A stretch of DNA of 64,000 bases from assembly GCF_005233835.1 (NCBI RefSeq), contig NZ_SZQA01000038.1, positions 1 through 64,000 of the forward strand. Direction: 5' to 3'. Origin of the DNA: Herbidospora galbida. GTDB lineage: Bacteria > Actinomycetota > Actinomycetes > Streptosporangiales > Streptosporangiaceae. The notes beneath the pieces were generated by a model. The model saw only the letters and a list, made by a program, of their open reading frames with translations, was not told the origin of the DNA and made no database searches. Made by a program: the position numbers and the translations under genes. Below, in pieces: positions 1 through 28,751 of the stretch. The number at the start of each line of letters is the position of its first letter. Positions within the stretch are counted from its first letter, which is position 1.

Positions 1-4498
<4,498 letters not shown>

Positions 4499-4626
4499 GA
4501 ATGCGCCACCCCAAGCCGTAATATCCATACGGAGAAAATGATGGACACTAGCGTTATTCAAATGGTCACCGCCGGAAGTTACTGCGACCCTACGGGCGGC
4601 TCCCCGCACCGGGCCACGATCGCGTG

Positions 4627-4644
4627 CTGGCACCTTGTTGCCAG
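4627..4644. promoter_or_regulatory. Inverted repeat CTGGCA-N6-TGCCAG in the 282-bp divergent region between PKS and 4781 gene
   Basis: A perfect 6-bp inverted repeat with a 6-nt spacer lies between the divergent starts at 4498 and 4781, in a region clearly richer in A/T than its flanks. The same CTGGCA/TGCCAG words recur in the other divergent promoter region at 9759-9798, which suggests one cluster regulator binds both. No clear -35/-10 pair could be assigned. Operator function is inferred. Confidence 0.4.
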
Positions 4645-5364: not shown

Positions 5365-6735
5365 ATGCCCGCCGACGCCCCCCTCAGCCACGGTCAACTC
5401 TTCAGCTGGCGCGAGATCGAGCGCTATCCCGACGACTGGATGCAGGACGCGAACCTCCCCATCGTCTGCGACCTGCGGGGGTTGCCGATGGCCCGGGTCG
5501 AGAACGCGCTGCGCGTGCTGATGGACCGGCACGAGCCGCTGCGCACCACCTACCACGTCGTCGACGGGCAGCCGGTGCAGCGCGTCCACGAGTCGGCGGA
5601 CCTGCCGATCGAGCGGGTCGACCGGGTGGTCCGCGACTGGGAGGACCCGGAGGACACCAAGGACGAGCTCTGCGCGGAGCCGTTCGCGATGGAGGGCGGC
5701 CTGCTCTGGCGCGGGCGCATGATCACCACCAACGGGTCGGCGGTGTTCCTGGCGCTGTCCTTCTCGCACCTGATCATGGACGTCTGGTCGATCAACCATC
5801 TGACCGACCAGTTCAGCGCCTTGATCGCCGACCCGGGGGCCGTCGCCGAACTCGGGCCGACGCCGAGCGAGCTGGCCCGCGAGCAGCGCACCGAGCGGTG
5901 GCGCGACCGGCAGGAGGCGTCGGAACGGTACTGGCGGCGCACCCTCGACGACGTCCTGGCCGACCCGCTGCCGACGCTGCCGGCCAAGGCGAAGCGCAAC
6001 CGACTTGAGGCCACCCTGCACTCGCACCGTCTCGGCGGGCTGGCCGCGCTGGCCGCCAGAAGGCTCGGCGTCACCGCGCCCGCGCTGGTGATGGCGCTGG
6101 TCACCGCTGGACTGGCCCGGCACACCGACACCGACAAGGTGACGATGAGCCTGATGGCCTCCAACCGGTTCTCGCCGGAACACCACCACGTGATCGGCAC
6201 GATGAACCAGCTCATCCCGGTCGTCGCGACGGTCGACCCGGGATCGCCGCTGGGCGAGCACGTCAAGCGCCTCCACTGGGCCGGGGCGACGGCCTACCGC
6301 CACTCCTCCTACGACTTCGACAAGATCGCCGCGCTCGCCGCCGAGGTCGCCGCGCAGCGGGGCGACGACCTGGCGCACGACTGCTGGGTGAACCAGCTGT
6401 TCCGCTGCTGGTTCAACTACGTGCAGCTCGACCGCAAGCCGTCCGACGCCACCGCCGAGACCCCGGCCGAGCTGTCGTGGACGCCGCTGGCGCAGCAGTA
6501 CGGCCAGCCGTTCCGGGTCAGGGTGACAGTGGCCAACGGCCGGACCAGCATCTTCATGCTCGCCGACCCGGCGATCATCCCGGCCGGGGGCATGGCCGGG
6601 ATGCTGCGCACGATCGCGCTCGGCGTCCAGGTCGCCGCGACGGCCCCAGAGACCAGCCTCAAGGACCTGTGGGACGTCGACCACGCGACCCTGGCGCCGT
6701 CGCTGTTCCCCGCGACCGTCGCCCTGCCGGAGTAA
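5365..6735 (+). CDS. Stand-alone condensation-domain protein (C-domain superfamily)
   Basis: 456 residues; ATG 5365 has AGGAGA 4 nt upstream. The N-terminal HEPLRTTYH stretch and the central catalytic region are those of NRPS condensation domains, but there is no A or PCP domain. The canonical HHxxxDG is SHLIMDVW here: the second (catalytic) His135 and Asp139 are present, the first His is Ser and the Gly is Val. A related variant, with His and Asp at identical residue numbers, occurs in the protein at 9870. It is likely an acyl/aminoacyl transferase making an amide or ester between carrier-bound intermediates, or releasing the chain. Substrates are unknown. Its stop lies 7 bp from the stop of the convergent decarboxylase. 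Confidence 0.85.
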   Translation: MPADAPLSHGQLFSWREIERYPDDWMQDANLPIVCDLRGLPMARVENALRVLMDRHEPLRTTYHVVDGQPVQRVHESADLPIERVDRVVRDWEDPEDTKDELCAEPFAMEGGLLWRGRMITTNGSAVFLALSFSHLIMDVWSINHLTDQFSALIADPGAVAELGPTPSELAREQRTERWRDRQEASERYWRRTLDDVLADPLPTLPAKAKRNRLEATLHSHRLGGLAALAARRLGVTAPALVMALVTAGLARHTDTDKVTMSLMASNRFSPEHHHVIGTMNQLIPVVATVDPGSPLGEHVKRLHWAGATAYRHSSYDFDKIAALAAEVAAQRGDDLAHDCWVNQLFRCWFNYVQLDRKPSDATAETPAELSWTPLAQQYGQPFRVRVTVANGRTSIFMLADPAIIPAGGMAGMLRTIALGVQVAATAPETSLKDLWDVDHATLAPSLFPATVALPE

Positions 6736-6742
6736 GCAGGTC

Positions 6743-7957
6743 TTATACGAGGACTTCCACCGGCGCCGGATGGCTGAGGAACGCCGTGGGGCTCGCCGTG
6801 AGGCCGTACGCGCCGGCCTGGAACACCACGACCAGGTCGCCGATCTCGACTCTCGGGAGTTCCACCCGGTCGCCGAGCAGGTCGAGCGGGGTGCACAGGC
6901 GGCCGACCACGGTGACCGGCGCGTCCGCGGGCCCGCCCAGGCGATCGGCCACGGCCATCGGATAGTTGCGCCGGATCACCTGCCCGAGGTTCCCCGAGGC
7001 CGCCAGCTGGTGGTGCATCCCGCCGTCCACGACCACGAAGGTCGTGCCCCGGGACTCCTTGCGGTCGACGACGCGGGTGACGTACACGCCGGCCTCGCCG
7101 ACCAGATAGCGCCCGAGTTCGATGACGACGCGGGCGCCCGGCAGCAGCGGGGTGATCCGCTCGCGCATGAGCCGCGCCAAATTCTCGCCGATCGGCTCCA
7201 GGTCGAGGGGCCGGTCCCGGCGCGAGTACGGGATGCCGAACCCGCCGCCGAGATTGAGGTACCGGATGGGCGGCGACACGTCGGCGAGCCCGAGAACCAG
7301 GTCCACGGTGCGCCGCTGCGCCTCGCAGATGTCGTCGGCGCGCAGGTTCTGCGAGCCCGCGAAGACGTGGAAGCCCTGGAAGTCGACGTCGTCGCCCAAC
7401 CGGGCGAGCACCTCGGGCACGCGTTCCGCGTCGATGCCGAACTGCTGCGGCCCGCCGCCCAGGCGCATCCCGGAGCCTCGCACCGTGAAGTCGGGATTGA
7501 CCCGGATCGCGATCCGGGCGGGCACCCCGAGGGCGGCGCCGATCGCGCGCACCCTGGCCAGCTCGGTCTCCGATTCCAGTTCCACCGTCACGCCGGCCGC
7601 GACCGCCTGGGTCAGTTCACCGACGGTCTTGCCCGGCCCGGCGAAACCGATCCGGCCGGCGGGTACCCGCGTGTCGAGCGCATGCCGCAGCTCTCCCGCC
7701 GAGGCCACGTCGAAGCCGTCGACCAGCCCGCTCAGATGCTGCAGCAGGGCGGGCATCGGGTTGGCCTTGACCGCGTAGCTCAGCTCGACTCCGGCGGGCA
7801 GCGCGGCGCGGAGCGAGGCGACCCTGCGGGTGACGAGGTCGCGGTCGTAGGCGAAGAACGGCGTGCTCCCGACCCGGGCGGCGAGCCTTCCTGCGGGGAT
7901 GCCGCCGACGGTCAACCGCCCGTCTCGGTGACCTTCCCAGTGACCTTCCCAGGTCAT
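6743..7957 (-). CDS. PLP-dependent decarboxylase, diaminopimelate/ornithine decarboxylase fold (type III)
   Basis: 404 residues. An N-terminal alanine-racemase-like barrel carries the PLP lysine (YAVKANP, Lys64), a Gly-rich phosphate-binding region (LNLGGGFGIP) and a C-terminal beta domain with the DAPDC-type catalytic Cys context (RLCTPLD). It starts at ATG 7957, overlapping the stop of the AMP-ligase gene by ATGA. The ACP/ligase/decarboxylase arrangement resembles exosortase-associated and butirosin-type (BtrK-like) systems. There the amino acid is decarboxylated while bound to a carrier protein, so lysine biosynthesis is unlikely. Inferred product: a decarboxylated aminoacyl-ACP building block. 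The N-terminus has a short duplicated WEGH. Confidence 0.88.
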   Translation of the reverse strand: MTWEGHWEGHRDGRLTVGGIPAGRLAARVGSTPFFAYDRDLVTRRVASLRAALPAGVELSYAVKANPMPALLQHLSGLVDGFDVASAGELRHALDTRVPAGRIGFAGPGKTVGELTQAVAAGVTVELESETELARVRAIGAALGVPARIAIRVNPDFTVRGSGMRLGGGPQQFGIDAERVPEVLARLGDDVDFQGFHVFAGSQNLRADDICEAQRRTVDLVLGLADVSPPIRYLNLGGGFGIPYSRRDRPLDLEPIGENLARLMRERITPLLPGARVVIELGRYLVGEAGVYVTRVVDRKESRGTTFVVVDGGMHHQLAASGNLGQVIRRNYPMAVADRLGGPADAPVTVVGRLCTPLDLLGDRVELPRVEIGDLVVVFQAGAYGLTASPTAFLSHPAPVEVLV

Positions 7958-9417
7958 CGGAGCGCCCGGCGGCGGAGTTCGGCGCGGTCGAACTTGCCGT
8001 TCCCCGAGCGGGGCAGCGCGGCGGCGAGGATGAACCGGCGGGGCACCATGTACCTGGGCAGGTCGCGTTCCATCGCCCGGCGCAGCTCGTCCGGGGTCGT
8101 GCCCGCGGCGGTGAGCACGGCGTGCAGCGTCACCTGCTCGCCCAGGTCCTCGTCCGGTACGCCGACCGCGACGGCCTCGGTGACCAGGCCGGTGGCGTAG
8201 GCCGCCTCCTCCACCTCGGTCGGGCTCAGCCGGTAGCCGGAGGTCTTGATCATGTCGTCGGTACGCCCGACGAAGTAGATGAAGCCGTCGTCGTCCCGGT
8301 AGGCGACGTCGCCCGACCAGACGGCGATCTCGTCGGCGCCGGGCGGGAACGGCCGGAACCGCGCCGCGGTGCGGGCCGGGTCGTTCCAGTAGCCGAGTGA
8401 CACCAGCGGTCCCCGGTGCACGATCTCCCCCTCCTCGCCGGGGTCGCAGACCGAACCGTCCGCCCGTACGACGAGGACCTCCGCGCCGGGGATCGCCTTG
8501 CCGATCGATCCGGGCCGGCGGTCGATCTCCGCGGGGTCGAGGTAGGTGGATCGGAAGGCCTCGGTCAGGCCGTACATCAGGAAGGGGGTGGCCTGGGGGA
8601 ACGTCTCGCGCAGCCGGGCCAGGGTGGTCGCGGGCAGCCGGCCGCCGGTGTTGGCGAAATAGCGCAGGTTCCGGGTCGCCTCGGCCGGCCATCGCTGGGT
8701 GGCGAGCTGGGTCCACAGCGGCGGCACGCAGGTCAGCGCCGTCACCCCGTGTGTGGCGCAGAGCCGGACGACGTCGCGGGGCAGCAGGTAGTTGACCAGC
8801 ACCACATGCGCTCCGGCCAGGAACGCGGTGGTGAGCTGGCTCAGTCCGGCGTCGAAGCTCAGCGGCAGCGCCGCGAGGACCACGTCGACGGAGGTGTGGC
8901 CGAGGTAGCCGGCGACGCTCCGCGCGCCCGCGAGCAGGTTGCCGTGGCTCAGCACGACGCCCTTCGGCGATCCGGTGCTGCCGGACGTGTAGAGGATGGC
9001 CGCGACCCGCGCGGCGTCGCGATCGGCGGAGAGGCTCACCGCCGGTTCCGCGCCCAGGTCGTCGAGCAGCGCCGTGGGGATCGAAGAGTTCAGCGTGCGC
9101 GCCCGTTCGGGTGTGGTGAGCAGGAGCGCGGCGCCGCAGTCGTCGATCACGTACTCGACCTGCCGCGCCTTGAAGAGCGGATTGACCGGTACGAAGACCC
9201 CGCCGGCCGCCGCCACCGCGAAGATCGCCACGACGGTTTCGATCCGCTTCTCCGCGTATATCGCGACCCGGGCGCCGGGCTCCAGCCCGCGCAGCCCCTC
9301 GGCCGCCCGCGCGACCCGGCTCCGCAGCTCGCGATAGGTGAGCGTCACATCCTTGTAGGTGACCGCCGCGTGATCGTCGTCACCGAACCGCAGCAGGTCG
9401 TCGAGGCGCGTCAGCAC
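7954..9417 (-). CDS. AMP-forming acyl/aminoacyl-ACP ligase (ANL superfamily)
   Basis: 487 residues. The A3 loop (YTSGSTGSPKG, near residue 145), the A5 motif (YGLTEAF), the A7/A8 region (SGDVAYRDDDG and GRTDDMIKTSGYR) and the A10 lysine (GNGKFDR, near residue 478) are all present. It should activate a carboxylic acid or amino acid and load it onto the ACP encoded 3 bp upstream. It is closest in layout to the stand-alone ligases found next to a PLP decarboxylase. Substrate cannot be read from the sequence. ATG 9417; the stop overlaps the decarboxylase start. Confidence 0.9.
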   Translation of the reverse strand: MLTRLDDLLRFGDDDHAAVTYKDVTLTYRELRSRVARAAEGLRGLEPGARVAIYAEKRIETVVAIFAVAAAGGVFVPVNPLFKARQVEYVIDDCGAALLLTTPERARTLNSSIPTALLDDLGAEPAVSLSADRDAARVAAILYTSGSTGSPKGVVLSHGNLLAGARSVAGYLGHTSVDVVLAALPLSFDAGLSQLTTAFLAGAHVVLVNYLLPRDVVRLCATHGVTALTCVPPLWTQLATQRWPAEATRNLRYFANTGGRLPATTLARLRETFPQATPFLMYGLTEAFRSTYLDPAEIDRRPGSIGKAIPGAEVLVVRADGSVCDPGEEGEIVHRGPLVSLGYWNDPARTAARFRPFPPGADEIAVWSGDVAYRDDDGFIYFVGRTDDMIKTSGYRLSPTEVEEAAYATGLVTEAVAVGVPDEDLGEQVTLHAVLTAAGTTPDELRRAMERDLPRYMVPRRFILAAALPRSGNGKFDRAELRRRALR

Positions 9418-9420
9418 GGC

Positions 9421-9678
9421 TCAGAGCCCGGCCCGCGTCGATTCGAGCAGCGCCGACAGCCGCGCCCACAACGACCCGACCGTCGCGAACGTCTCCTCGT
9501 CGAGGATGTCGTCGGGCAGTTCCCGGTCGTATCCGTCCTCCAGATCGACCAGCAGCTGCACCACCCCCATCGAGTCCAGCCCGAGCGCGGTGAGATCGTC
9601 GCCGGGGGACAGATCACCCGGCCCGGCGTAGGGAAGATGCCGGCGAAGAATGGCCTGGAACTCGTGAGGTATTTCCAT
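9421..9678 (-). CDS. Discrete acyl carrier protein of the ligase/decarboxylase cassette
   Basis: 85 residues with the phosphopantetheine site LGLDSMGVVQLL. ATG 9678 is chosen because AGGAGA sits 6 nt upstream; a TTG at 9693 lies before that site and is unlikely. It is the first gene of a three-gene minus-strand operon and probably carries the amino acid while it is decarboxylated. The two AcpS-type PPTases in the next operon are candidate activators. Confidence 0.92.
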   Translation of the reverse strand: MEIPHEFQAILRRHLPYAGPGDLSPGDDLTALGLDSMGVVQLLVDLEDGYDRELPDDILDEETFATVGSLWARLSALLESTRAGL

Positions 9679-9758
9679 CACGGGTCTCCTCAAAAGTCCT
9701 GCGCTGTATTACCTCGTTCAGGGTCATTGAATTCCGCGACAACTGTCAAGAAAGGGCT

Positions 9759-9798: not shown

Positions 9799-9869
9799 CA
9801 GGACGGCGGCCGTCTTCTCATTTAGCCTGAGTGGGCTGAACCGTTCAACCGCAGGAGGCCTGGTTGCCG

Positions 9870-11432
9870 ATGAACGCGAATCTCGGCTGGGGCCAGCACC
9901 ACATCTGGCTCCGCTACCACGAACTGCCGCCGGACGCTCGCCACAATACACATATCATTCTGAATCTAGAGATTCCACCGGGCCTGACGGTCCAGAACTG
10001 CCGGGCGATTCTCAATCAGACGGTCCGCAGGCACGAGACGCTGCGCACCACCTACCACTTCGACCACGACGGCGACCCCTACCGGGTTGTGCGCCCGCCC
10101 GGCCCGTGTCCCCTCGTCGTGCTGTCCGCCGAGGACGACGGCACGGCCATGCCCGCCGAGGTCGTGGAGCGGCTCGGCGCGGCCGAGTTCGACATCGCCT
10201 CGGAGTGGCCGATCCGGGTCGTCGTCATCACCACCGAGGGCGTGCCCCGGCAGGCGGTGGTGGTGCTGAACCATCTCGCGGTGGACATGTGGACGGTCAC
10301 GGAGCTCAAGCGCGAGATGTGGGCGGGCTGCGCGGGCGTGGTGGCCCGCCGGCCCACCGCGATCGAGCCGGTCCGGCACCGTCCCTCCGATCTCGTCCGG
10401 CACGAGGCGTCTCTCGACCCGGCGCCGGCGCTGGCGTACTGGGAGAAGGAGATCGAGGCCATGCCGGCCGACGGGTTCGGCGACCGCCGCCGGCCCGGCC
10501 CGCCCGTGGAGACGCTGCGGGCGTCACTGATCTCCCCGGCCCTGCTGGGCGCCGCGCAGCGGATCGCCGCCCGCCACCGGGTGTGGCCGTCGCAGGTGCA
10601 CCTGGCGGCCTACACGGCGCTGATGGCCGCCTACACCGGCGGCCCGTCCTTCGACCATCTGACGTTCACCGGCAACCGCGAGAGCGGCCCGTACTCGCAG
10701 GTCCTGACCTGCCTGTTCTCCCCGATGCTCATGCGCGTCGACGTGCGGGACGACCCGCCCTTCGCCGAGTTGCTCGCCCGCGTCGCCGACCGGTTCGAGC
10801 AGGCGCGGGAACACGCCTACGTCCCGTACGACGCGGTGGTCGAGCTGCTGGCCAGGAAGGGCACCCGGCTGGCCTCGGAGTTCAACTTCATCAAGCAGCC
10901 CACCCTGGAGTCCCGCGCCCGGCGCAGCAGGGTCACCTGGCACCCGGCGGCCGACGCCTACGGCACCGACACCTACGTCCGGGTCGACCAGTGGCGGGAC
11001 TCCGTCGTGGTCGCGCTGCACGCCGCCTCCTCGGTCATGGACGGGGACGCCGTCGAGCGTTTCCTGCGCGCCCTGGAGACCACGATCCTCACCTACGACG
11101 CGACGCCGGGCGACCTGCGGACCAGCGACATCGCCGCACTGGCCGGCTTCGCCCCGGCGCCTCCGCCCGGCCGGCCGCACGACGTGCCGACCATCCCGGA
11201 GCAGGGGGCGGTGGAGGCCCTCGCGGCCGCCGTGAGCCAGGCGAACGGACTCGCCGGCGTCGACCCGGCCCGGAACTACGCCGACGCCGGGGGCAGGGTC
11301 CTGCGGATCCCGCGGGTGCTCGCCCTGCTCCGGGACCTCGGGTGGGCGGGAGTCACCCTCCACCAGCTCACCGGCGTCACGCCGCTGAGCACCCTGGCGG
11401 GCCAATTACTACAACCCGGAGTTCGATCATGA
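9870..11432 (+). CDS. Stand-alone condensation-domain protein with degenerate carrier-like C-terminus
   Basis: 520 residues from ATG 9870; a TTG at 9864 is also possible because AGGAGG is 5 nt before TTG and 11 nt before ATG. It shares HETLRTTYH and the variant catalytic motif NHLAVDMW (His135, Asp139) with the protein at 5365, so the two are paralogues. After the C fold, residues about 440-515 resemble a peptidyl carrier domain, but the expected GGDSL reads GGRVL, so the phosphopantetheine Ser is missing. This tail may dock a partner or be a dead carrier. The gene ends in a TTA-CTA codon pair (TTA at 11406), so it may depend on a bldA-type tRNA. Its stop overlaps the next start (ATGA). Confidence 0.85.
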   Translation: MNANLGWGQHHIWLRYHELPPDARHNTHIILNLEIPPGLTVQNCRAILNQTVRRHETLRTTYHFDHDGDPYRVVRPPGPCPLVVLSAEDDGTAMPAEVVERLGAAEFDIASEWPIRVVVITTEGVPRQAVVVLNHLAVDMWTVTELKREMWAGCAGVVARRPTAIEPVRHRPSDLVRHEASLDPAPALAYWEKEIEAMPADGFGDRRRPGPPVETLRASLISPALLGAAQRIAARHRVWPSQVHLAAYTALMAAYTGGPSFDHLTFTGNRESGPYSQVLTCLFSPMLMRVDVRDDPPFAELLARVADRFEQAREHAYVPYDAVVELLARKGTRLASEFNFIKQPTLESRARRSRVTWHPAADAYGTDTYVRVDQWRDSVVVALHAASSVMDGDAVERFLRALETTILTYDATPGDLRTSDIAALAGFAPAPPPGRPHDVPTIPEQGAVEALAAAVSQANGLAGVDPARNYADAGGRVLRIPRVLALLRDLGWAGVTLHQLTGVTPLSTLAGQLLQPGVRS

Positions 11433-12319
11433 CTGAACTGTTCGCGGAGTCCATAAGCAAGACCCACCGACTCGTCGCCTCGGAGCAGGAGCTCCGCACC
11501 GCCGTCGACCGCGAGCTCGCCACCGCGAACCTGGACGGACTCGTCGTCATGGGCGGCCACTTCATGCTGTTCGAGGAGGAGGGCACCGGCAGGCTCGTCC
11601 CCGGCGTCCTGGAGGAGCAGTCCTCCACCGTGATGCGCGACCGGATCGCCGGCCGGGTCGGGATCTTCCCCGGTTACACCTGGCGGCTCTCGGTCGACCT
11701 GATCACGTCGTACGCGAACATCGTCACCGACGCCAAACTGCTGCTGCTGATCAACGACTGGCAGTACGTCCCCACCGGCGGCCGTCCCGCCGGTCAGCTC
11801 CGCGCCGAGTTCTTCGACGGCTTCACCGGGCTGCCCGACGGCTACGAGCGGATCCTGCGTGAGGCGGGACTGGACGCGGGGAGCGTGCTGCCCAGCCGCA
11901 GACATCCGCTGGCGTTCCCGGAGACCTGGCTCAAGTACCGCTTCCAGAAGGCCGCCGACAGGTTCGTCAAGCAGGGCAGGCTCGAAAAGCGGGTGCTGGA
12001 GTCCGGCACGAAGGACACCGAGGTCTCGTTCCTGGACGAGTCGGGCAACTACCGCACGCTGATCAGCTGCGGCGTCACCGGCTGCGCCGGCGAGATCACC
12101 GAGATGATCTCGGAGGTCCACCGGGCCGGCCACCGGACCATCGTGATCTTCGCCCCGGGCGAGTGCCTGTCCCCGGTGCGGACCGGAGTCGAGATCGCGC
12201 TCAGCCTCTACGGGCTCACCGGCATGACCGTCGTGATCGCCGATCCCGGCGGCAGCGGCGAGATGTCCACCGACGAGATCTATTCGAAGCTGGTGACGGT
12301 CAGCACCTTCCGGAGCTGA
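11429..12319 (+). CDS. Unrecognised 296-residue protein coupled to a cysteine desulfurase
   Basis: I do not recognise the family. There is no signal peptide or membrane segment. The N-terminal half is mixed alpha/beta with a hydrophobic LLLLIND strand. The centre is basic (KYRFQKAADRFVKQ). The C-terminal third has a CGVTGC pair (Cys-x4-Cys), a further GECLSP Cys and Gly-rich loops (ADPGGSGEM). It starts by ATGA overlap with the C-domain gene and ends 10 bp before the desulfurase, so the three are one operon. From context it could accept sulfane sulfur or use it on a carrier-bound substrate. That role is inference only. Confidence 0.75.
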   Translation: MTELFAESISKTHRLVASEQELRTAVDRELATANLDGLVVMGGHFMLFEEEGTGRLVPGVLEEQSSTVMRDRIAGRVGIFPGYTWRLSVDLITSYANIVTDAKLLLLINDWQYVPTGGRPAGQLRAEFFDGFTGLPDGYERILREAGLDAGSVLPSRRHPLAFPETWLKYRFQKAADRFVKQGRLEKRVLESGTKDTEVSFLDESGNYRTLISCGVTGCAGEITEMISEVHRAGHRTIVIFAPGECLSPVRTGVEIALSLYGLTGMTVVIADPGGSGEMSTDEIYSKLVTVSTFRS

Positions 12320-12329
12320 GGGCGGAACG

Positions 12330-13484
12330 ATGGACGTCATATACCTGGACAACTGCGCCACTACCCGCGTGGACGAAGAAGTGCTCGACGCGATGCTGCC
12401 GTACCTGCGCGAGGAGTTCGGCAACCCGTCCTCCCCGCACCTGCTGGGCAAGCGGGCCCGCAGAGCGGTCGACCGGGCCGCCGAGTCGGTCGCCCGGCTG
12501 CTCGGCGGCGACCCGGCCGGCGTCGTGTTCACCTCCGGCGCGACCGAGAGCAACAACCTCGCGCTGCTCGGCGCGTTCGGCCACGACGACCGCTCCCCGG
12601 TCAACGCGGTGTTCTGCCCCACCGACCACAAATCGTCGCTGTCGGTCGCCCGCGCGCTGCGCGGGCGCGGCGTCGACGTCCGGACCATGGCGATCCGGGC
12701 CGACGGCGTGGTCGACCTGGCCCGGTTCGCCGGCCAGCTCGACTTCGACTCCCGGCTGGCCACGGTGGCCTGGGTGAACAGCGAGATCGGCACCATCCAG
12801 CCGGTCCGCGAGATGGCCGCGCTCTGCCATGAGAGCGGCGCCCTGCTGCACGTCGACGCCGCCCCGGCCGCGGGACGGATCCCGATCGACGTGGCCGGCG
12901 CGAGCGTCGACACCCTGGCCATGTCCGCCCACAAGATCGGCGGCCCGAAGGGCATCGGCGTCCTGTACGTCCGCCCGGAGATCCGCCGCAGGATCCGTCC
13001 CATCACCTACGGCGGCGGCCAGTACGACCTGCGCAGCGGCACCATTCCCACCCACCTGGCGGTCGGCCTCGGCACCGCCTGCGAGCTGGCCGCGGCCCGG
13101 ATGGAGGAGGACGGCAGGAAGGTCGCGCTGCTGCGCGCGACCGCGCTGGAACTGCTCACCCGCCGCATCCCCGGCCTGCGCCTCAACGGGCGCCCGGAGG
13201 CCGGCGTCCCGCACGTGCTGAACCTGGTGCTGCCGGGCGTGCGCGGCGAGAGCCTGGTCGCGAGCCTGCCGTCGGTGGCGCTGTCCACCGGATCGGCGTG
13301 CAACTCCGACTCCCAGGAACCCTCGCCCGTGCTCACCGCGATCGGGGTCAGCGCCGAGGACGCCAACAGCTCCATCCGGATGTGCCTGAGCCCCCGCATG
13401 ACGGTCGAGGAACTGGTCACCGGACTGAACCTGGTCTGTGACCGGGCCCGCGGCCTGGCCGGCGTCGTGGCGGCGATGCGTTGA
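12330..13484 (+). CDS. Cysteine desulfurase, NifS/IscS-like class V aminotransferase fold
   Basis: 384 residues. An N-terminal YLDNCATT motif, the PLP lysine in SAHKIGGPKG and a mobile active-site loop with Cys in STGSACNSDS are all present, so persulfide-forming chemistry (L-Cys to Ala plus bound sulfane sulfur) is expected. There is no iscU, iscA or fdx nearby. Its place at the end of the C-domain/296-residue operon suggests pathway-specific sulfur supply, as in thiotetronate polyketide clusters that carry their own desulfurase. GAGGGCGG precedes ATG 12330. A strong hairpin follows the stop. Confidence 0.92.
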   Translation: MDVIYLDNCATTRVDEEVLDAMLPYLREEFGNPSSPHLLGKRARRAVDRAAESVARLLGGDPAGVVFTSGATESNNLALLGAFGHDDRSPVNAVFCPTDHKSSLSVARALRGRGVDVRTMAIRADGVVDLARFAGQLDFDSRLATVAWVNSEIGTIQPVREMAALCHESGALLHVDAAPAAGRIPIDVAGASVDTLAMSAHKIGGPKGIGVLYVRPEIRRRIRPITYGGGQYDLRSGTIPTHLAVGLGTACELAAARMEEDGRKVALLRATALELLTRRIPGLRLNGRPEAGVPHVLNLVLPGVRGESLVASLPSVALSTGSACNSDSQEPSPVLTAIGVSAEDANSSIRMCLSPRMTVEELVTGLNLVCDRARGLAGVVAAMR

Positions 13485-13488
13485 GGAC

Positions 13489-13518
13489 AGGGGTCCGCCG
13501 CAGGGGCGGCGGACCCCT
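13489..13518. terminator. Bidirectional hairpin between convergent desulfurase and regulator genes
   Basis: A perfect 13-bp stem (AGGGGTCCGCCGC with its complement) and 4-nt loop AGGG lie between the stops at 13484 and 13520. There is no long U tract on either side, as is common in actinomycetes. Confidence 0.85.
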
Positions 13519-13519
13519 C

Positions 13520-14467
13520 TCACGCCCCGCCGGCCAGGAACGTGCGGGCCGCCTGCACACCCGCCTGAAACCGGCTGGTGGCCTCCAGGTCACGCATCAG
13601 GGTGGCGATGTGCCGGCGGCAGCTCCGCACCGACATGCCGAGCTTGCGGGCCACCACCTCGTCGGTGTAGCCCTTCGCCATCAGCCCCGCGATGGCCTGC
13701 CGCAGGTCGTCGGCGACGTTCGCGTAGCCGGACTCGGCGCCCTCCAGCGGCGTCGCGGTGTCCCACAGATGGTCGAACAGGTCGAGCAGGAACCGGACGA
13801 TCCCGTCGTTGTGCACCCGCGCCACGTTGGTCTCGCCGTCCGACAGGCCGAACAGCACGACCAGCTCGCGGTCGAAGACGACCGCGGAGCGCGGGACGTG
13901 ACTGACCGTGCCGATGGCCGCGCCCGCGTCGATGAGCTGCTTCAGCTTCATCCGGGTGGCCAGGTCGGCCCGGTTCCGGTGCTGGCAGACGATCCGCACG
14001 GTGACGCCGCGCGAGAGCAGCGGCAGGTACGCCCGGGCCAGCTCCTCGGCGTCGTCCTCGCCGGACTGCAGGACCAGCACCTCGGTACGGCAGGCGTCCC
14101 CGGCCATCTTGAGGAAGCCGCGCACCTCCAGCGACCCGGCCAGGTACTCGATCGGCGACGGCGCGGGACCGACGAAGTCCCGGATCTGGTCGATCAGCTC
14201 CCGCCGCTGGTAGATCTCCCGCTCCACCGAGGAGACCAGCGCGTTGGCCGCCACCTGCGGGTCCACCGGGATGAACCGGTGGGCGGCGCCGTCCACGGCG
14301 CGTAACAGGCGGCTCTCGACCAGCTGGTTCACCGCCTCGTTCAGCTCGCGCACGCCGATGCCTAGCTCGCCGGCCGCCACGTCGAGGACGTCGATGGCGC
14401 CCTTCCTGGTCGCGTATCGGTAGACGCCGGCGATGTCGGCGGGCCACTTGGTAATCGAATTCATCAT
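13520..14467 (-). CDS. TrmB-like / LuxR-type HTH transcriptional regulator
   Basis: 315 residues with an N-terminal winged-helix region (about 20-75), a central sensor-like region and a C-terminal LuxR-type helix-turn-helix (about 255-305, motif YTDEVVARKLGMSVRSCRRH). This architecture is common for cluster-linked regulators in actinomycetes. The start is ATG 14467 with AGGAGG 7 nt upstream; the ribosome site overlaps the stop of the ABC permease, so it is the last gene of the 29.8-13.5 kb operon. It has no receiver domain and may sense a metabolite. It is a candidate for binding the CTGGCA repeats. Confidence 0.85.
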   Translation of the reverse strand: MMNSITKWPADIAGVYRYATRKGAIDVLDVAAGELGIGVRELNEAVNQLVESRLLRAVDGAAHRFIPVDPQVAANALVSSVEREIYQRRELIDQIRDFVGPAPSPIEYLAGSLEVRGFLKMAGDACRTEVLVLQSGEDDAEELARAYLPLLSRGVTVRIVCQHRNRADLATRMKLKQLIDAGAAIGTVSHVPRSAVVFDRELVVLFGLSDGETNVARVHNDGIVRFLLDLFDHLWDTATPLEGAESGYANVADDLRQAIAGLMAKGYTDEVVARKLGMSVRSCRRHIATLMRDLEATSRFQAGVQAARTFLAGGA

Positions 14468-27234: not shown

Positions 27235-28272
27235 TCAGATGATCGGAATGCTCCAGCTCTTGGGCACGATGTAAGGGCTGGTCAGCGTGGTCACACCGGC
27301 GCCTTCCACGGTGAGCTCCAGCCCGGCGGCGGCCAGTCCGGCCTCCACCCTGGCCAGGCCGAGCGTCGTGCCGAGGCCGACGCTGCGCACCGCGAACACC
27401 ACCTCGCCGACGTCCTCGCCGCCGGCCAGGACGCGCGCGCCCGGCTCGGGCACGGTGTCGCCGCCGGAGAAGCCGACGGTCCTGCGGCCCTGCCGCGACT
27501 CGAACGCGGCGAGCACGGCCTCCTTGCCGACGAACTCGTCCTTGGTGATGTCGACCAGCCAGTTGGCGCCGATCTCGATCACGTTGACGTCGCCGGCGGT
27601 CTCCAGCCGGGGGATGGGCTGGCGGACCTCCAGCATGGCCAGCTCCAGCGCCTCCTGCCCGGAGGGGGTGACGTGCTCCAGAGTGGCCCGCCACAGGTCG
27701 GCGGCGGATTCGACCGGCACGATCATCTGGTAGCCGTACTCGCCGGTGAACCCGGTCCGGGCGAAGATGATCTCGACGTCGTTCCACACGGTGTCCGACA
27801 CCGCCTCGAAGGGCAGCGAGGCCAGCTCGCCGTCGATCAGGCGGCCGACCACGCCCCACGCGTACGGGCCTTCGAGCCCGATCACCGTCAGGTCGGCCGA
27901 ACGGTCGACGATCTCCACGTCCTCGTCGTTGACCGCCCGCAGATGCTCCAGCAGCCGGGTGCCCGCCCCGACCGAGCTCTCCAGCAGCAGCCCGTCCTCC
28001 CGGCCGAACGCCAGGACCTGGTCGACGACCCGCCCGTCGTCGTCCAGCACCAGGCTCATCATGCAGCGCTCGGAGGTCAGGTACTCGACGTCGCGGGCCA
28101 GCACCCGCTGCGCGAAGTCCACCGCGCCGGGACCGCTGATCTCGATCAGCGTGTGCCCGCTCAGGTCCAGCGCCACGGCCCGTTCCCTGAGCACCTTGTA
28201 CTCGTCCGACAGGTCGGTGAAGCGGAGCGGGACGGTGGCGTCGCCCACCTGGCCGTAAACGATGTCGGTCAT
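27235..28272 (-). CDS. GcvT-like (aminomethyltransferase/folate-binding family) protein
   Basis: 345 residues. The GcvT-type regions DDDGRVVDQVLAF, RTGFTGEYGY and FVGKEAVL are present in order, and length matches T-proteins. There is no gcvH or gcvP nearby, so glycine cleavage is unlikely. The family includes tetrahydrofolate-dependent demethylases and methyl- or methylene-transferring enzymes, so it may move a one-carbon unit on a polyketide or amine intermediate. It lies between KS-CLF and DH genes with gaps of 27 and 5 bp. Confidence 0.85.
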   Translation of the reverse strand: MTDIVYGQVGDATVPLRFTDLSDEYKVLRERAVALDLSGHTLIEISGPGAVDFAQRVLARDVEYLTSERCMMSLVLDDDGRVVDQVLAFGREDGLLLESSVGAGTRLLEHLRAVNDEDVEIVDRSADLTVIGLEGPYAWGVVGRLIDGELASLPFEAVSDTVWNDVEIIFARTGFTGEYGYQMIVPVESAADLWRATLEHVTPSGQEALELAMLEVRQPIPRLETAGDVNVIEIGANWLVDITKDEFVGKEAVLAAFESRQGRRTVGFSGGDTVPEPGARVLAGGEDVGEVVFAVRSVGLGTTLGLARVEAGLAAAGLELTVEGAGVTTLTSPYIVPKSWSIPII

Positions 28273-28277
28273 CGGGG

Positions 28278-28751
28278 TCACACCTTTCCTTCGGCGGCGT
28301 TGCCCGCCGGATCGACGATGGTGAGGATTCCTTCGGCCGCGACCTGGCCGTCGACCCGGGCCGAGACCCGGAACTCGGCGAAGCCCGCGCCGCCTCCGGT
28401 CCGCTCGGCGGTCAGGGTGAGCCGGTCGCCGGGGACGACGGGGCGGCGGAACCGCATCGACCTGACTCCGGCCAGGTAGCTGATCCGGCTGGCCCCGGCC
28501 AGGGCGAAGACCAGGCCGGCGAGCTGCGCCATGGCCTCGATCATCACCACGCCGGGCAGCACCGCCTCGGTCGGGAAGTGGCCCTGGAACCACAGCTCGG
28601 TGCCGGTGACGTTCTTGGTCGCCGTGCCCTTCGTGCCGGGTTCGACCTTGCCGACCCGGTCCAGCAGCAGCATCGGCCAGCGGTGCGGCAGCACCTCGCG
28701 GATCTGGTCGTTGCTCAGCCCGGTGACGGGGGCCGCCGCCACGATCGTCAT
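28278..28751 (-). CDS. FabZ/FabA-type hotdog 3-hydroxyacyl-ACP dehydratase
   Basis: 157 residues. HRWPMLLLDRV followed by FQGHFP and LPGVVMIEAMAQ gives the FabZ catalytic His and Glu. It removes water from 3-hydroxyacyl-ACP after the KR. With no enoyl reductase in the operon, the expected product is a polyene chain. It overlaps the ACP gene by ATGA. Confidence 0.93.
   Translation of the reverse strand: MTIVAAAPVTGLSNDQIREVLPHRWPMLLLDRVGKVEPGTKGTATKNVTGTELWFQGHFPTEAVLPGVVMIEAMAQLAGLVFALAGASRISYLAGVRSMRFRRPVVPGDRLTLTAERTGGGAGFAEFRVSARVDGQVAAEGILTIVDPAGNAAEGKV

Follow-up and report, generated by a model that had tools for sequence, protein, structure and literature searches.

Why should a polyketide gene cluster carry a cysteine desulfurase gene immediately behind the gene of a small protein which, judged by its sequence, belongs to no characterised family? 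This question is raised by a locus of the actinobacterium Herbidospora galbida (assembly GCF_005233835.1). The stretch analysed, here called the window, comprises positions 1 to 64,000 of contig NZ_SZQA01000038.1; it begins at the end of this 82-kb contig, and the 8.3-Mb genome has its nearest relatives in Herbidospora (94% identity). The two genes in question lie on the plus strand and both start with ATG. The first (11429-12319) encodes a 296-residue LPD16-type protein, in the following referred to as the partner, with a predicted class I aminoacyl-tRNA (transfer RNA) synthetase-like (HUP) fold. The second (12330-13484) encodes a 384-residue cysteine desulfurase of the IscS/NifS/DndA type. 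The answer we favour, giving it an even chance of being correct, is that the pair constitutes a module dedicated to sulfur transfer: the desulfurase would load sulfur onto the synthetase-fold partner, which in turn would make a sulfur-bearing amino-acid-like unit.

The start codon of the partner gene overlaps the stop codon of the preceding gene within the tetranucleotide ATGA at 11429-11432. This preceding gene (9864-11432, plus strand) encodes a free-standing condensation-domain (C-domain) protein with the motif NHLAVDMW and a carrier-like tail. As merely 10 nt separate the partner stop codon from the start of the desulfurase gene, the three genes are tightly coupled in a single run, and a GC-frame plot lends coding support to each of them. 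By the same plot, a 737-codon open reading frame at 10106-12319 turned out to be the partner gene plus an out-of-frame upstream extension and was dismissed. Downstream of the desulfurase gene, at about 13489-13518 (plus strand) and ahead of a convergently transcribed regulator gene, a GC-rich hairpin with a perfect stem of 13 bp is present (dG of -38.5 kcal/mol for 13478-13530, z of -5.7). It probably represents a terminator; a T-run is absent, for which reason the hairpin is missing from the output of the intrinsic-terminator scan. No gene for iron-sulfur (Fe-S) assembly was seen adjoining the pair, SufB and SufU being encoded on contig C48 and MnmA on contig C2 of the same genome. The picture drawn by the initial annotation, namely two co-translated reading frames at 11429-13484, enclosed between a C-domain gene and a terminator and devoid of neighbouring Fe-S assembly genes, is thereby borne out.

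The desulfurase matches Pfam PF00266 (class V aminotransferase fold) at 3.7e-67. Its His100, Lys202 and Cys324 align with NFS1 and are invariant at every locus which possesses a desulfurase gene. With 323.5 bits against the IscS model (cut-off 643.2), 323.9 bits against NifS (530.75) and 320.4 bits against DndA (480), it remains below every NCBIfam equivalog cut-off checked. The C-terminus is shorter than that of IscS, about 30 residues of which extend past the alignment, so that most of the IscS tail is missing. Elsewhere the same genome encodes further desulfurase homologues. Contig C48 carries a SUF locus (SufB, SufS, SufU), and on contig C2 MnmA is encoded about 1.3 kb downstream of another desulfurase. 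Because these genes are present in addition, the pair in the window is supplementary to the housekeeping sulfur genes and dedicated, which agrees with the pathway-specific desulfurase assumed at the outset.

The initial annotation had suggested examining the co-occurrence of the two genes across genomes. Relatives of the partner are found in 50 other records, which comprise 48 genome contigs and two Priestia plasmids. The desulfurase gene follows the partner gene directly at 46 of these 48 genome loci, and likewise on the one Priestia plasmid whose flank was read, which is a pairing far beyond chance. The two exceptions are a contig end and a decayed locus of Photorhabdus thracensis (L042, 9950-11569), where the partner gene is frameshifted and the desulfurase gene is gone while a methyltransferase gene remains, so that partner and desulfurase have decayed together. 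The hosts belong to the Streptosporangiaceae, the Proteobacteria (Pseudomonas, Pandoraea, Burkholderia, Brucella, Photorhabdus/Xenorhabdus) and the Bacilli and represent three bacterial phyla, across which the order, partner then desulfurase, is the same. The distances of partner and desulfurase are correlated (r = 0.96, 47 pairs), a relation to which the phylogeny of the species contributes. In several hosts the GC content of the pair departs from that of its flanks (0.48 versus 0.61 in P. cremoricolorata, 0.50 versus 0.41 in P. khanii), as expected of horizontal transfer. The partner family is rare, since among 396 genomes drawn from the whole phylum the own genome was the sole match; within the same family, Streptosporangiaceae, 12 of 151 sampled genomes carry it, and the viral and phage collections contain no relative.

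The gene accompanying the pair varies with the host. In 25 of 26 other actinobacterial loci a C-domain gene is located directly upstream, the remaining locus being cut by a contig end. Outside the Actinobacteria, the third gene encodes a methyltransferase resembling sarcosine/dimethylglycine methyltransferases in Photorhabdus, Xenorhabdus and Burkholderia, a Ddl-like ATP-grasp ligase in Pseudomonas, Pandoraea, Brucella and Priestia, and an EamA amino-acid/metabolite exporter in Halalkalibacter and Paenibacillus.

Some of these loci deserve description in their own right. In Pandoraea (L044, 14642-17447), Brucella (L045, 2335-8234) and P. cremoricolorata (L046, 3974-9981) the cassette stands beside genes for a B12-binding radical SAM enzyme (TIGR04434, 801 bits versus a cut-off of 550) and a cystathionine-lyase-like pyridoxal phosphate (PLP) enzyme. 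Brucella and P. cremoricolorata additionally possess a GntR/FCD regulator and a second D-Ala-D-Ala ligase. Its gene content gives this locus the appearance of a small cluster for an antimetabolite, in which a ligase provides self-resistance. On a Priestia megaterium plasmid (L050, 17977-33864) the cassette and the Ddl-like gene are accompanied by genes for an amino acid-[ACP] ligase, an acyl carrier protein, an acyl-CoA dehydrogenase, an ATP-grasp enzyme, an alanine permease and an alanine racemase, which suggests a D-alanine-like product.

The partner itself is characterised by three cysteines. Cys214 and Cys219, which form the motif CGVTGC, and Cys246 are invariant in all 48 distinct sequences covering them, that of the window included; the motif and the third cysteine pointed out in the initial annotation are hence real and conserved throughout. 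Searches against PHROGs, NCBIfam, PADLOC and the sequences of the PDB gave nothing or matches at chance level. With Pfam LPD16 (PF18830, gathering cut-off 27 bits) the partner scores 24.3 bits, or 27.3 bits when the whole open frame is scored; a Xenorhabdus homologue reaches 29.1 bits and the most divergent homologue does not match. Affiliation to LPD16 is accordingly borderline. This domain has been described in proteins of conjugative elements (PMC5512222). We dismissed the link to such polyvalent proteins as a guide to function: as the full-length relatives found here sit in desulfurase cassettes, the name says little about what the partner does. The most basic segment of the protein, which is acidic overall (isoelectric point 5.3), is a helix comprising residues 165 to 189, in which seven positions are occupied by Lys or Arg in no fewer than 45 of the 48 sequences. 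This pattern suggests a phosphate, nucleotide or tRNA ligand.

AlphaFold models were compared for the window protein (predicted local distance difference test score, pLDDT, of 85) and for a Photorhabdus homologue (pLDDT of 88), which, as they share most of their alignment, are not fully independent. For both models E. coli ArgRS is the best structural match, with Z = 14.4 over 196 aligned residues and root-mean-square deviations of 3.4 and 3.2, and all listed rows of the VIA structure comparison are class I aminoacyl-tRNA synthetases or relatives such as MshC. A profile and structure search, proposed together with the initial annotation, hence yields no characterised family by sequence but a predicted class I synthetase fold. 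According to the models, the three invariant cysteines lie at loops following core strands of this fold. Since the structural alignment starts at residue 35 of the partner and residue 112 of ArgRS, Met41 would, if no gap intervenes, occupy the position of the arginine-binding Asp118. A manual reading of the topology places Cys214 at the end of the strand which bears Asp317 in ArgRS and a zinc-ligand cysteine in CysRS, a correspondence which is to be taken as provisional.

How might the pair work? In the favoured reading, the desulfurase would take the sulfur of cysteine as a persulfide on Cys324, as its conserved residues and its family membership imply, and would hand it to a cysteine of the partner. 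The latter would accommodate an amino-acid-like substrate in what was once the amino-acid pocket and install the sulfur, the outcome presumably being a small amino-acid-like unit which carries sulfur. The C-domain proteins encoded nearby in the window would join this unit to the polyketide or else to a carrier-bound amine. In other bacteria the same core pair would instead supply a Ddl-like ligase, a methyltransferase or an EamA exporter. A product of this kind is favoured from context because the third genes (Ddl-like, EamA, methyltransferase, C domain) are of kinds which handle amino-acid-like molecules. More tentatively, and with considerable doubt as to the full extent of the proposal, the partner may stand for a hitherto uncharacterised class of synthetase-like enzymes without motifs for adenosine triphosphate (ATP) which use desulfurase-derived sulfur to produce amino thioacids or other thio-amino acids as portable building blocks. 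Unrelated gene clusters in three phyla would make use of this class, and the Ddl and alanine racemase genes present in some of them would confer self-resistance against a D-Ala-like product.

Several observations weigh against the favoured reading. The motifs HIGH (HxGH) and KMSKS (K[MF][ST]K) as well as the PP-loop SGGxD[S/T], which is typical of MnmA, ThiI, TtcA and DndC, are absent from every partner homologue, so that activation by ATP is without motif support. Alignment of the partner with 11 ArgRS and 13 CysRS/MshC sequences by hhalign gave a probability below 1%; hence a class I synthetase-like HUP/Rossmann fold is supported by the models while membership among the synthetases is not supported by sequence. 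The loop from Cys214 to Cys219 belongs to the regions predicted with the least certainty in either model. The initial annotation had envisaged a new sulfur-insertion partner. The uncharacterised nature of the protein, its three invariant cysteines and its tie to the desulfurase across phyla make a new protein for the handling of sulfur the best interpretation. The partner matches no sulfur-transfer family, however, and the synthetase fold predicted for it would by name alone give no hint of sulfur.

The missing motifs also bear on the rival explanation which survives best, though we deem it unlikely. Here the partner would resemble a cyclodipeptide synthase and depend on aminoacyl-tRNA, a cysteine or a desulfurase-derived persulfide accepting the aminoacyl group to give an aminoacyl thioacid or thioester. 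A predicted synthetase fold lacking HIGH and KMSKS fits this proposal, as does the conservation of a basic helix in an otherwise acidic protein. Moreover, cyclodipeptide synthases form a covalent aminoacyl-enzyme on a serine (PMC12945691), and chains of such enzymes are present among the weaker Foldseek matches of the second, i.e. the Photorhabdus, model. ArgRS, MetRS, CysRS and GlnRS outrank them structurally, however, no tRNA-binding domain is apparent in the partner, and the basic helix could bind phosphate or a nucleotide. As to the activation route, the missing motifs argue against ATP, and the helix together with the modelled fold may allow a tRNA route of the cyclodipeptide synthase type.

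The other serious reading, which we regard as improbable, assigns the three cysteines to a metal site (zinc or Fe-S) gripping a thiol substrate in the manner of CysRS and MshC. The partner would then handle cysteine or a derivative thereof, and the desulfurase would act on its product or remove the sulfur of the latter. CysRS and MshC indeed rank among the best structural matches (Z of 10 to 11.5), MshC coordinates the thiol of cysteine by C43, C231 and H256 (PMC9736012), and by manual comparison of the topology Met41 and Cys214 seem to coincide with two zinc-ligand cysteines of CysRS. Yet it is a methionine, Met41, that replaces one of these ligands in every homologue. Furthermore, HIGH and KMSKS are absent, the register relative to CysRS was chosen by eye, and no signal was obtained with hhalign.

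Still less probable is the view that the desulfurase serves to make alanine or acts on carrier-bound cysteine, sulfur being a by-product. Alanine racemase, alanine permease and the Ddl-like gene at the Priestia locus would be in keeping with it, and a desulfurase acting on cysteine bound to a peptidyl carrier protein has been proposed for thiotetronates (PMC5518548). Given the abundance of alanine, however, a dedicated desulfurase would be odd, and the three invariant cysteines of the partner are left unexplained. Finally, that housekeeping genes of Fe-S assembly, tRNA thiolation or DNA phosphorothioation lie in the cluster by chance is hardly credible, for despite good scores of the desulfurase with the SspA and DndA models it falls far short of the IscS, NifS and DndA equivalog cut-offs, SUF and MnmA reside on other contigs, the partner has neither a PP-loop nor a PADLOC match, and no Dnd or Ssp gene was found among the scanned neighbours.

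The pair is embedded in a larger cluster. To its left, the window opens with a modular type I polyketide synthase gene (2-4633, minus strand) whose domain order begins KS(Q)-AT-ACP-KS, the first module being a loading module of the KS(Q) type, and which runs off the contig start; a long plus-strand open reading frame at 5-4102 was rejected as its shadow on the basis of the GC-frame plot. It is followed by the gene of a second free-standing C-domain protein with the motif SHLIMDVW (5365-6735, plus strand, start approximate). Then comes a minus-strand trio encoding a PLP-dependent decarboxylase of the ornithine/diaminopimelate/arginine type (6743-7957, start approximate), an AMP-dependent acyl/amino-acid ligase (7954-9417) and an acyl carrier protein-like frame with the site GLDSMG (9421-9693), which was assigned by reading the sequence, with no family search. 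The ligase exceeds the cut-off of TIGR03098, a family which takes its name from exosortase A systems and is here found within a polyketide synthase cluster. In the C-domain protein upstream of the pair (9864-11432) and in its aligned homologues, the phosphopantetheine serine of the carrier-like tail is absent, and nearly all show GG[R/Q/G][V/A]L. To the right of the pair, the convergent gene at 13520-14467 (minus strand) gives a weak match to LuxR-type (GerE) regulators; ABC transporters, aromatic hydroxylases, a SnoaL-like protein and more polyketide synthase-like genes follow. A glycine-cleavage T-protein-like (GCV_T) gene is located inside the cluster at 27235-28593. Because the orthologous cluster of Nonomuraea dietziae contains several DH-KR modules, the backbone is probably polyene-like. 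In that cluster another adenylation enzyme stands in place of the trio at 6743-9693. Karamomycin, a thiazole of Nonomuraea endophytica, was considered as the product, and nothing was found which connects it to the cluster.

Few routes are known by which enzymes introduce one sulfur atom from cysteine into a natural product, and several of these depend on carriers borrowed from housekeeping metabolism. If the favoured reading is true, a compact two-gene module moving between phyla would represent a new device for sulfur insertion which is simple in genetic terms. Searches for sulfur-containing metabolites as yet undiscovered could start from it, and it would widen the functions of the aminoacyl-tRNA synthetase fold. 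In-cluster desulfurases as such are already known from paulomycin (PMC4425429), and a supply from a separate locus is known from thiotetronates (PMC5518548). In the full-text literature searched, which is incomplete for subscription journals, no paper was found on the pair, the partner family, the fold assignment or the cross-phylum cassette. The 4'-thiothymidine cluster of Photorhabdus (PMC12691670), which was also considered, encodes a radical SAM enzyme, a nucleoside kinase and a triphosphatase, and neither member of the pair.

With respect to the fold, the partner resembles the ArgRS catalytic domain most closely; unlike ArgRS, its 296 residues leave no room for the other domains, HIGH is absent and there is no profile similarity. 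With MshC and CysRS it shares the predicted fold and, apparently, a cysteine at the strand bearing a zinc ligand, while it differs by the arrangement of its three cysteines, the lack of HIGH and KMSKS and the lack of detectable sequence similarity. With cyclodipeptide synthases it would share a class I synthetase-like fold without ATP motifs and a conserved basic helix; it differs by its lower structural rank with these enzymes, by cysteine in place of serine and by always occurring with a desulfurase.

MnmA-like enzymes belong to the HUP superfamily, as the partner is predicted to do. With respect to sulfur supply, the paulomycin cluster combines the desulfurase Pau31 with the MoeZ/ThiF-like Pau30, and a ThiS-type carrier has been invoked (PMC4425429). 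Like Pau31, the desulfurase described here is encoded within a secondary-metabolite cluster; in contrast to paulomycin, no gene for a ThiF/MoeZ-like protein or a ThiS-type carrier was seen beside the pair. The thiotetronates, which the initial annotation had named as precedent, obtain sulfur for a polyketide from a desulfurase and a thiouridylase-like enzyme (the StuS/StuJ pair), whose genes lie at a locus apart and serve primary metabolism as well (PMC5518548). MnmA and the nearby desulfurase on contig C2 of H. galbida resemble this borrowed arrangement. The analogy holds in so far as here, too, a desulfurase and a predicted member of the HUP superfamily would supply sulfur to a polyketide, but it is looser than supposed. 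Unlike the MnmA-like enzyme of the StuS/StuJ pair, the partner in the window lacks a PP-loop, is predicted to resemble class I aminoacyl-tRNA synthetases, and is encoded within the cluster in strict linkage to its own desulfurase.

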